From Myxococcales bacterium (GTDB lineage Bacteria; Myxococcota; Myxococcia; Myxococcales; Myxococcaceae): a stretch of 64,000 nt of DNA. The notes beneath the pieces are model-generated. The model searched no databases and was not told the DNA's origin. It saw only the letters and a program-made list of their open reading frames with translations. The stretch covers positions 62,001-126,000 of the forward strand of contig JADLDB010000062.1 of the NCBI GenBank assembly GCA_020846875.1, written 5' to 3'. The translations under genes and the position numbers were made by a program. This document shows positions 26,011-28,883 of the stretch, piece by piece; the first letter of the stretch is position 1; every line of letters begins with the position of its first letter.

Positions 26011-26712
26011 TCAGCGCCAGAAGGCGTACTGGTACGGCCGGCCATGCGTCATCAGGAACTGCCACATCTTCAGGGGAGGCACGGCGTGCACGCCGTCGGG
26101 CCACGGGTTCTTCATGAGGAAGTTGCCCGTCTCGTCCATGCCGTCGACGACGATGAAGTGTCCGCCGTAGCCCTCGAGTTTCTCGTACGGCGGCAGGACG
26201 TACGGGTTTCCCGCCGCGACGACGTAGTGGCCCTGCTCCAGGTGCCGGGCCATCCAGAAGGTGGCCTCACCGTCCCAGTCCTGTGAGCTGAGTCGCAGGT
26301 GGGTCGCCATGCGGTAGAGGCCGGTGCGATCCGTACCGCGTCGCGCCGTCGCGCCCGCGATGCGGCACAGCCGCATGACCAGCTCCGCGTCGGTGAACTG
26401 CGAGCCCAGGCCGTAGGCGCGCGCGACCATCGCCAGGCAGGTGGGCCCGCAGTAGCCCTCGTCGAGGTACTCCGAAGTCGCGCCGGCTGGCCGCGTCTGG
26501 CTGATGTGCCGGACGGGCGGAGGGCCGATGCGCCCGGGCTCCAGCGGCGCCTGCGCCTGCGGCGGCTCGTCAGCCCGTGGGGCTGGCGCTCGGACTGCGG
26601 GGTGCCCGCCGCCCCCTTGCAGCGCCACCTGGCGCCGACGCGCGCGGACCGCGTCCTCGAGCTCTTTCGCTGGAGGCCTTGGCGGCGCGCCGCGGCGGGG
26701 CGGGGGTGGCAC
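26011..26712 (-). CDS. C39-like cysteine peptidase
   Basis: About 233 residues from GTG 26712 (other in-frame GTGs exist, for example 26628). The first 80 residues are Pro/Arg/Ala-rich linker. The C-terminal domain is papain-like of the C39 type: nucleophile Cys in EGYCGPTCLAMVARAYG, active-site His in GYGGHFIVVDGMD and the third residue in FLMKNPWPDG. No signal peptide or ABC domain is present, so it is the free-standing C39_2 type, not a bacteriocin exporter. It is divergent (93 bp) from the predicted selenoprotein and convergent with the ABC permease. The substrate is unknown. Confidence 0.8.
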   Translation of the reverse strand: MPPPPRRGAPPRPPAKELEDAVRARRRQVALQGGGGHPAVRAPAPRADEPPQAQAPLEPGRIGPPPVRHISQTRPAGATSEYLDEGYCGPTCLAMVARAYGLGSQFTDAELVMRLCRIAGATARRGTDRTGLYRMATHLRLSSQDWDGEATFWMARHLEQGHYVVAAGNPYVLPPYEKLEGYGGHFIVVDGMDETGNFLMKNPWPDGVHAVPPLKMWQFLMTHGRPYQYAFWR

Positions 26713-26805
26713 ACGCCCGAGCCTACCGCTGAACGGCCGAGCGAGCCGGGCCAGGCCTCGACTTCCAGTTGCGCGCCGCCGCCACCCGGCTATTCCTCCT
26801 GCCCC

Positions 26806-27405
26806 ATGAGCGAGATCGCCGTCACCGTCTGGTCGGACTACGTCTGACCCTGGTGCTACATCGGCCTCGGCGAGGTCGACAGCTTGAGGCAGGAATACAG
26901 GCTGCGGCTGGACTGGCGGCCCTTCCTCTTGCGGCCCGACGCCGCCGAGGAAGGTTGGCCCTTGCCCGAGGCCATCCGCGCCCGCATGAGCTCGCCCGAC
27001 AACCCGCTCACCGCGCGCGCCAGGGCGCTGGGGCTGACGCTGGTGGAGCGGGCGCACATCCCCAACTCGCGGCGGGCCCACGAGTGCACCGAGTTCGCCC
27101 GGGCGCACGGCCGCCTCGACGCCTTCCACGCGCAGGTGCTGGAGCGGTACTGGTCGAAGGGCGACGATCTGCACGAGTGGCCCGTGCTCGAGGCCGCCGC
27201 GGTGGCCGCGGGCCTCGACGCCGCCGCGATGCGCCGGGAGGTGGCCGCGGGCCAGTGGCGCGAAGTGACGCAAGCCGCGCTGGACGAGGCGACGGACATG
27301 GGGGTGCAGGCGGTGCCCACCTTCCTCGTGGCGGACCGCTTCGTCATCCAGGGCGCGCAGTCGGCCGACGTCTTCCGGCAGGCCTTCGCGCGCCTCGGCC
27401 GGTGA
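26806..27405 (+). CDS. Predicted selenoprotein: DsbA/FrnE-family thiol oxidoreductase with UPWC active site
   Basis: A thioredoxin-fold protein of the DsbA/FrnE family, 199 residues if the TGA at 26845-26847 (codon 14) is read as selenocysteine. The family motif is Cys-Pro-Trp-Cys-Tyr-Ile-Gly after a first beta strand ending S-D; here the reading is WSDYV-TGA-PWCYIG, so the stop replaces exactly the first, nucleophilic Cys. Everything downstream is intact: the helical insertion (RAHECTEFARAHGRLDAFH), the cis-Pro loop GVQAVPTFLV and the terminal FVIQGAQSADVFRQAF. A bacterial SECIS-like hairpin follows at 26861-26879. The ATG at 26806 starts right at the first strand; no clear ribosome site precedes it. 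A nonsense mutation is the alternative. No selA/B/C/D genes occur in the window. Confidence 0.82.
26855..26883 (+). promoter_or_regulatory. Bacterial SECIS-like hairpin
   Basis: The stem TCGGCCTC (26861-26868) pairs with GAGGTCGA (26872-26879) over 8 bp, including one G-U pair, around the 3-nt loop GGC. A short outer helix GCT/AGC (26855-26857 with 26881-26883) extends it. The loop starts 21 nt after the TGA and has G in its first two positions. Both facts fit the known rule for bacterial SECIS elements (loop 16-37 nt after UGA, G in the first two loop bases). It lies inside the coding frame, as bacterial SECIS elements do. Confidence 0.7.
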
Positions 27406-27455: not shown

Positions 27456-27778
27456 ATGGACAAGATGGCGCTGCTCGCGGCGTTTCAGCCTGGGTCGCTG
27501 GCGGGCGTTGGGCAGGCGGCGCGTGAGGCCTGGCCGGGCGCCGTACGGGCGGAGGCGTTCACGCGCCACCTGGCGGCGCGCAGGCGCGGTGGCTTTGCGG
27601 TTGCTCGATGAGCGGGTCCTCGCGAAGCTCCACAAGGCGATCGCCGGGGTGGATCGGCGAAGGGATCGCGTTGGGGCGGTACGTCGGACGCCGGCGCGTC
27701 GGTGGCGGCGCCATGGGAGTCGTCTTCGAGGCGCACGATCCTGCGCTCGAGGGCCGCGTCGCGGTGAAGGTGCTGCGC
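27456..27778 (+). pseudogene. Fused remnant of an ECF sigma factor gene and a Ser/Thr kinase gene
   Basis: ATG 27456 opens a 51-codon frame (MDKMALLAAFQPGSL...EAFTRHLAAR) resembling the N terminus of the myxobacterial sigma factors that precede Ser/Thr kinase genes; it stops at 27611. Overlapping it (ATGA at 27608) is a frame with the kinase glycine-rich loop LGRYVGRRRVGGGAMGVVFEAHD and the lysine strand RVAVKVLR, after which homology ends near 27778 and unrelated sequence runs into the glycosyltransferase. The rest of both genes is missing. I read this as a deletion scar; it could still express a short peptide. Confidence 0.55.
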
Positions 27779-27872
27779 GGTCCGGCGACCGACGGGCACT
27801 GCGAGAAGCACCACGACCTGGGCGGCTGGCGGCTTGTCAACCCCGGCTTCCTCACGAAAGAGTGCGCGGGCC

Positions 27873-28883
27873 TTGAGCGCCCCTCCCCGCGTCAGCGTGC
27901 TGCTCCCCGCCCGGGACGCGCTGGCCACCGTGCGCCAGGCGATGGCCAGCGTGCTGGGCCAGTCCTTCACCGACTTCGAGCTGGTGGCCGTGGACGACGG
28001 CAGCGTGGACGGCACGGGCGAGCTGCTCCGGCGCCTCGCGGCCGAGGACGCACGGGTGCGGGTGCTGAGGACTGCTGGGCTGGGGTTGGTGGGCGCGCTG
28101 ACGGTGGGCCTGGAGGCGTGCCGGGCCAGCCTCATCGCGCGCATGGATGCGGACGACGAGAGCCTGCCGGGCCGCCTCGCGGCCAGCGTCGCGGCGCTGG
28201 AGGCGGATCCTTCCCTCTCGGGCGTGGGCACGGGGGTGGAGATCTTCCGCGACGATCGCCCGCCCAGCCCCAACCTCCAGGCCTACGGGCGCTGGCTGTC
28301 GTCGCTCACCTCACCGGAGCTGGTGTTCCGCGATCGCCTCATCGAGTCGCCGCTGTGCCACCCGTCGGTGACGCTCAGGCGCAGCGCGCTGGAGGACGTG
28401 GGCGGCTGGCGCGACGGCGACTTTCCCGAGGACTGGGAGCTCTGGCTGCGGCTGCTGGAGCGCGGCCACCGCCTGACGGTGCTGCCGGAAGTGCTGCACC
28501 GCTGGAGAGATCACGATCGCCGCCTCACCCGGCAGGACGAGCGCTACGCCCTGGCGCGGCACCTCGACCTCAAGGCCGACGTCCTCGCCCGGCGCTTCTC
28601 CGGAGTGCCGCTGACCCTGTGGGGCGCGACGGAGACGGGGCGCGGCCTGGCGAGGCGGCTGCTCCAGCGGGGCGCGCGGGTGGAGCGCTTCGTGGAGCTC
28701 TCGCCGCGCAAGCTGGGCCAGACGATCCACGGGGCGAAGGTCGTTTCCCCCAATGCGCTGCCGGGGCCGGGCGAGGGCCACCTGCTGGCCTGCGTGGCCG
28801 CGAAGGGCGCGCGCGAAGACATCCGCGTTTGGCTGGCCGGGCGCGGGTACGTCGAGCTGCGTGACTTCACCTGCGTAGCGTAG
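27873..28883 (+). CDS. Family 2 glycosyltransferase
   Basis: A 336-residue GT-A fold enzyme that transfers a sugar from a nucleotide-sugar donor. The N-terminal domain (about 1-230) has VSVLLPARDALATVRQAMASVLGQ, the first Asp motif VAVDDGSVDGT, the metal-binding ARMDADDES and the EDWELWLRLLERG acceptor-loop motif. The C-terminal 100 residues (TLWGATETGRGLARRLLQRG) form a small Rossmann-like domain. The start is taken as TTG 27873, directly before the first strand; TTG 27834 is possible. It follows the sigma/kinase remnant, so its original promoter may be lost or replaced. The product glycan is unknown. Confidence 0.88.
   Translation: MSAPPRVSVLLPARDALATVRQAMASVLGQSFTDFELVAVDDGSVDGTGELLRRLAAEDARVRVLRTAGLGLVGALTVGLEACRASLIARMDADDESLPGRLAASVAALEADPSLSGVGTGVEIFRDDRPPSPNLQAYGRWLSSLTSPELVFRDRLIESPLCHPSVTLRRSALEDVGGWRDGDFPEDWELWLRLLERGHRLTVLPEVLHRWRDHDRRLTRQDERYALARHLDLKADVLARRFSGVPLTLWGATETGRGLARRLLQRGARVERFVELSPRKLGQTIHGAKVVSPNALPGPGEGHLLACVAAKGAREDIRVWLAGRGYVELRDFTCVA

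Follow-up and report, generated by a model that had tools for sequence, protein, structure and literature searches.

The window, the whole 64,000-nt stretch of Myxococcales DNA analysed here, contains a plus-strand frame that runs from an ATG (26806) to a final TGA (27403–27405), with an in-frame TGA at codon 14, 185 open codons between the two TGA codons and no other stops (Table 1). Reading the in-frame TGA as selenocysteine (Sec, U) gives the motif VWSDYV-U-PWC-YIG, in which Sec takes the place of the first Cys of a CPWC motif, exactly as an earlier sequence-only reading of this DNA had stated. With the TGA read as either Sec or Cys, residues 6–194 match the Pfam family DSBA (PF01323, E = 4.7e-29). 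An alignment of 34 homologues, with TGA read as Cys (one other homologue also has a TGA), showed D11, Y12, position 14, P15, W16, C17 and P171 to be invariant, and codon 14 stands opposite an invariant Cys in 33 homologues. Residue P171 lies in the cis-Pro loop, a position known for thioredoxin-fold enzymes. There was no clear Shine-Dalgarno sequence upstream of the ATG at 26806.

Table 1. Coordinates of the features of the predicted selenoprotein gene in the window
Feature	Position	Strand	Evidence
CDS, predicted FrnE/DsbA-like selenoprotein, 199 residues and stop	26806..27405	+	Frame, Pfam, orthologues, PDB sequence and fold matches
TGA in frame (codon 14), predicted to encode selenocysteine at the first position of UPWC	26845..26847	+	Only TGA or Cys codons at the aligned position
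TGC, Cys17, resolving residue and second of the active-site pair in UPWC	26854..26856	+	Invariant in 34 homologues
Predicted hairpin of bSECIS type with 8 bp stem and GGC loop (26869-26871)	26861..26879	+	Folding and conservation in TGA relatives
CCC, Pro171 of the VPT cis-Pro loop	27316..27318	+	Invariant in homologue alignment

Protein family and gene start

The best sequence match in the PDB was FrnE of Deinococcus radiodurans (E = 4e-21), and the same protein (5cnw, TM 0.85) was the top Foldseek match; the query protein for these searches carried a spurious residue 200, which corresponds to the stop codon. The AlphaFold model (pLDDT 94) places residue 14 immediately N-terminal to a helix of residues 15–29, and the residue just before helix 1 is the catalytic position of thioredoxin-fold enzymes. 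Membership of the DsbA family (PF01323) follows from the above-cut-off Pfam match, the thioredoxin fold with a helical insert, the CxxC position before helix 1 and the cis-Pro, and the best PDB sequence and fold matches identify FrnE (cd03024/COG2761) as the closest DsbA subfamily. NCBIfam contains no model for this subfamily, and gave only a partial, below cut-off match to NF041057. The possibility that the final TGA (27403) is a further Sec codon was considered and set aside, as the DsbA domain is already complete upstream of it.

Mechanical ORF detection starts this gene at a TTG (26884), giving a 173-codon frame that has lost the active site, which bears out the expectation that ordinary gene calling would remove the functional core of this predicted selenoprotein. 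The presence of that frame would fit a scheme in which the TGA closes a short peptide and ribosomes begin anew at the TTG to give a truncated protein without active site, or in which near-cognate read-through inserts some other amino acid at the TGA. A restart leaves unexplained why the residues encoded between the TGA and the TTG (PWCYIG...) are conserved among homologues, and in the Cys orthologues the start lies upstream of the motif; we consider suppression or restart very improbable, and regard decoding of the TGA as Sec as the best reading of the gene.

Two other frames in the vicinity were recorded. An antisense frame (26011–27273, minus strand) matches Peptidase_C39_2 with its residues 254–391 (E = 6e-8), and is probably a real divergent gene with a start downstream of the first codon of the long frame. 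Downstream, a plus-strand frame (27608–28864) opens like a Ser/Thr protein kinase (GRYVGRRRVGGGAMGVVFEAHDPALEGRVAVKVL), after which the similarity ends; it has no Pfam match, and by its sequence it is a truncated or frameshifted kinase remnant.

Selenocysteine machinery of the genome

A search of the 7.06 Mb genome assembly (100% complete) for selA, selB, selD and selC, as proposed with the sequence-only reading, found all four. The tRNA-Sec scored 68.6 bits, above the cut-off, with ARAGORN giving a tca anticodon, and SelB, SelA (E = 4e-172) and SelD (E = 3e-111) are all encoded. Other selenoproteins were sought by single-family searches, which detected a formate dehydrogenase alpha subunit (L203, G000:C94:52925-54799) with an in-frame TGA at NRT-U-HAPS, a predicted second selenoprotein of this genome; UHxP is the standard Sec site motif of formate dehydrogenase (PMC13188914). 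Together, the tRNA-Sec, SelA, SelB, SelD and the formate dehydrogenase TGA indicate that UGA is very probably read as Sec in this organism.

A hairpin associated with the TGA codon

The hairpin reported in the sequence-only reading was recovered at the same position, with pairing between positions 17–24 and 28–35 (numbered from the TGA), its onset 13 nt after the TGA and a distance of 21 nt from TGA to loop. The published bacterial SECIS (bSECIS) model comprises a stem-loop with a G at loop position 1 or 2, located 16–37 nt from the UGA (PMC13188914), and the predicted hairpin agrees with it in its position after the UGA, its loop G and its spacing, as had been proposed. The single-sequence fold was only slightly better than that of shuffled sequences (z −1.1 to −1.55), and the hairpin alone would therefore not be evidence; what makes it convincing is its conservation in TGA-containing relatives, with few exceptions among the Cys forms. 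The outer seven pairs were complete in 25/25 distinct TGA sequences, each with a stem of 7–8 bp that starts 13 nt past the TGA, versus 3/23 distinct Cys sequences, and 98.1% of cells were paired in the TGA set compared to 73% in the Cys set. Among the TGA forms two pairs were changed on both sides, with C21-G31 replaced by U-A in three sequences (changing Val to Ile in the protein) and U23-A29 by A-U in one. The first loop base was always G in the TGA forms, with loops of GGC, GGU, GUG or GGUCG. The species are not independent in this association, which rests on few independent switches: of three independent pairs on supported branches, about two were concordant, none was discordant and one showed no difference.

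Other DsbA-like genes with a TGA were also noted. A second subfamily (L103–L107, L110, L114, L197–L199), from relatives in the same family and order, has the motif UPFCF(I/V)AE and its own hairpin of 5–7 bp past the TGA, of the type AGCAGCC-UGGU-CAGGCUGC. A third form (L108, L200) has UPWCYLST, and its hairpin differs in sequence. The genome encoding L114 (G051) lacked a tRNA-Sec above the cut-off, probably due to an assembly gap.

Sec and Cys alleles at an orthologous locus

Orthologues (E ≤ 1e-40) were detected in 68 of the 147 genomes of the class searched, with one TGA in 39, a TGC or TGT in 28, and a truncation before the motif in the remaining one. All TGA codons checked were at codon 14, and the TGA forms span two families. 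As anticipated, relatives thus differ at this position, with Cys in some and TGA in others.

This distribution bears directly on whether the TGA is a stop. It could be a sequencing or assembly error for TGC, as the two codons are one base apart, but a TGA at the same place in independent genomes from many genera effectively refutes this, and we regard such an error as vanishingly improbable. A recent nonsense mutation in a dying gene would fit the TGC or TGT found at this codon in some close relatives, including the nearest (L090, 70% identity), and the sequence-only reading had held that either a lack of selB or selC, or TGC relatives without a conserved hairpin, would point in this direction. 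Neither gene is absent; TGC relatives without the hairpin do exist, but these do not imply a nonsense mutation, since frame and hairpin are both intact at 38 other TGA loci in the class. With the identical TGA in 39/68 orthologues and the frame open beyond it, the lack of further stops in the window gene, a hairpin that with few exceptions is kept only together with the TGA, and the full Sec machinery, a pseudogene is highly improbable, and the conserved TGA refutes it in practice. The machinery, the conserved TGA and the TGA-linked hairpin all support the earlier proposal that the codon is read as Sec.

Both states were found within genus g23, which has Myxococcus-like loci, and within g26. 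For example, the Sec forms L161 and L174 share their neighbours with the Cys form L100, as does the Sec form L171 with the Cys form L149: upstream lies an S9 peptidase in divergent orientation, and downstream a PF03692 protein; the neighbours of the window gene differ from these. Paralogy was considered as the source of the Sec/Cys variation, and is ruled out for the loci compared by these common neighbours.

On a maximum-likelihood tree of 82 rows with position 14 left out, a method which does not fix the direction of change, the distribution of Sec and Cys needs approximately six changes, and branches with strong support make three of these unavoidable. Since the outgroups have Cys and Sec occurs on both deep branches of the ingroup, a single gain followed by five returns to Cys is the simplest reading. 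The more distant homologues found, from Chloroflexota and Proteobacteria, have Cys at position 14.

SelA was present in all Cys genomes tested (G013, G017, G022, G030, G032 and G034), and a tRNA-Sec scored above the cut-off in G017, G022, G030, G032 and G034. No tRNA-Sec above the cut-off was found in G013, which carries the nearest Cys form; loss of the Sec system was set aside here, with an assembly gap being likelier as SelA is present and the assembly is 92% complete. Three Cys alleles, L100 (TGT), L166 (TGT) and L172 (TGC), have kept a full SECIS-like hairpin with loop GCC, which is likely to be a relic of a recent switch from Sec to Cys.

We consider it probable that, across Myxococcaceae and adjacent families, a single orthologous FrnE locus with shared synteny among the compared genera has undergone one gain of Sec and about five reversions to Cys while the Sec machinery was kept, with one Cys group retaining the relic hairpin. 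If true, this would be a naturally occurring series in which to study the benefit of Sec to a DsbA-type enzyme. The predicted Sec alleles and their Cys orthologues at the same locus, in some cases within a single genus, provide matched pairs for studying why bacteria keep or drop selenocysteine.

Proposed mechanism and function

The gene almost certainly encodes a cytoplasmic FrnE-like DsbA-family protein that has a selenocysteine, decoded via tRNA-Sec, SelB and the bSECIS hairpin, as the nucleophile of its CPWC-type active site. From the features described above we infer Sec insertion, SelB binding, enzyme activity and its catalytic direction as follows. The genome's own SelA and SelD would supply the selenocysteine, and the UGA would be decoded by tRNA-Sec carried by SelB, which would bind the hairpin, whose apical loop opens with G. 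Located just ahead of helix 1 of the thioredoxin fold, Sec14 would attack substrate disulfides, Cys17 would resolve the mixed selenide-sulfide, and some partner would recharge the enzyme.

The protein begins at the first strand without a signal peptide, and is thus probably cytoplasmic. Deinococcus FrnE has been proposed to reduce disulfides in the cytoplasm, and mutants in frnE are more sensitive to oxidative treatment (PMC8945050). Given this proposal and the lack of a signal peptide, the most likely catalytic direction is reduction or isomerisation of disulfides in the cytoplasm, and together with the mutant sensitivity it suggests that the protein may serve as a Sec-based disulfide reductase or isomerase in oxidative stress.

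Comparison with known systems

DsbA-like selenoproteins with a UxxC motif are a family published since 2005, of which the present gene is one more member. They were described from the Sargasso Sea (COG2761; PMC1088965), from the myxobacterium Anaeromyxobacter dehalogenans and other species (PMC1794560), and as 'DsbA 1' in the GOS data (PMC2398784), and are listed as 'DsbA-like protein form 1' (PF01323) in a 2026 review (PMC13188914), so this kind of selenoprotein was already known. The Sargasso Sea, GOS and 'form 1' proteins share with ours the Pfam family, Sec as first residue of the CxxC motif and a bacterial SECIS after the UGA, whereas, in a comparison at the level of the published descriptions, the window gene belongs to a lineage with UPWCYIG from myxobacteria and their relatives. 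The A. dehalogenans selenoprotein is likewise myxobacterial and DsbA-like, but family f5 of the same order, which appears to be Anaeromyxobacter-like, has the other subgroup (UPFCFVAE), which is approximately 30% identical and has another hairpin. Our literature search found no paper describing the UPWCYIG lineage, nor any on the subject of selenoproteins in Myxococcus, Myxococcales, Myxococcota or myxobacteria; in Myxococcus and its relatives, where the literature searched describes almost no selenoproteins, the gene is a well-supported addition.

With D. radiodurans FrnE (PDB 5cnw; PMC8945050) the protein shares a CPWC-type site, a DsbA-type fold and a predicted cytoplasmic location. That enzyme has Cys in its active site and a C-terminal CXXXXC pair for regeneration (PMC8945050), whereas the window protein lacks such a pair and retains only Cys17 and Cys93; the pair is also absent from FrnE of S. 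roseofulvus, and is frequent but not defining for FrnE (PMC8945050). What the present locus adds to these known systems is evolutionary, with Sec and Cys alleles predicted at one syntenic locus and several apparent Sec/Cys switches in the myxobacterial branch.
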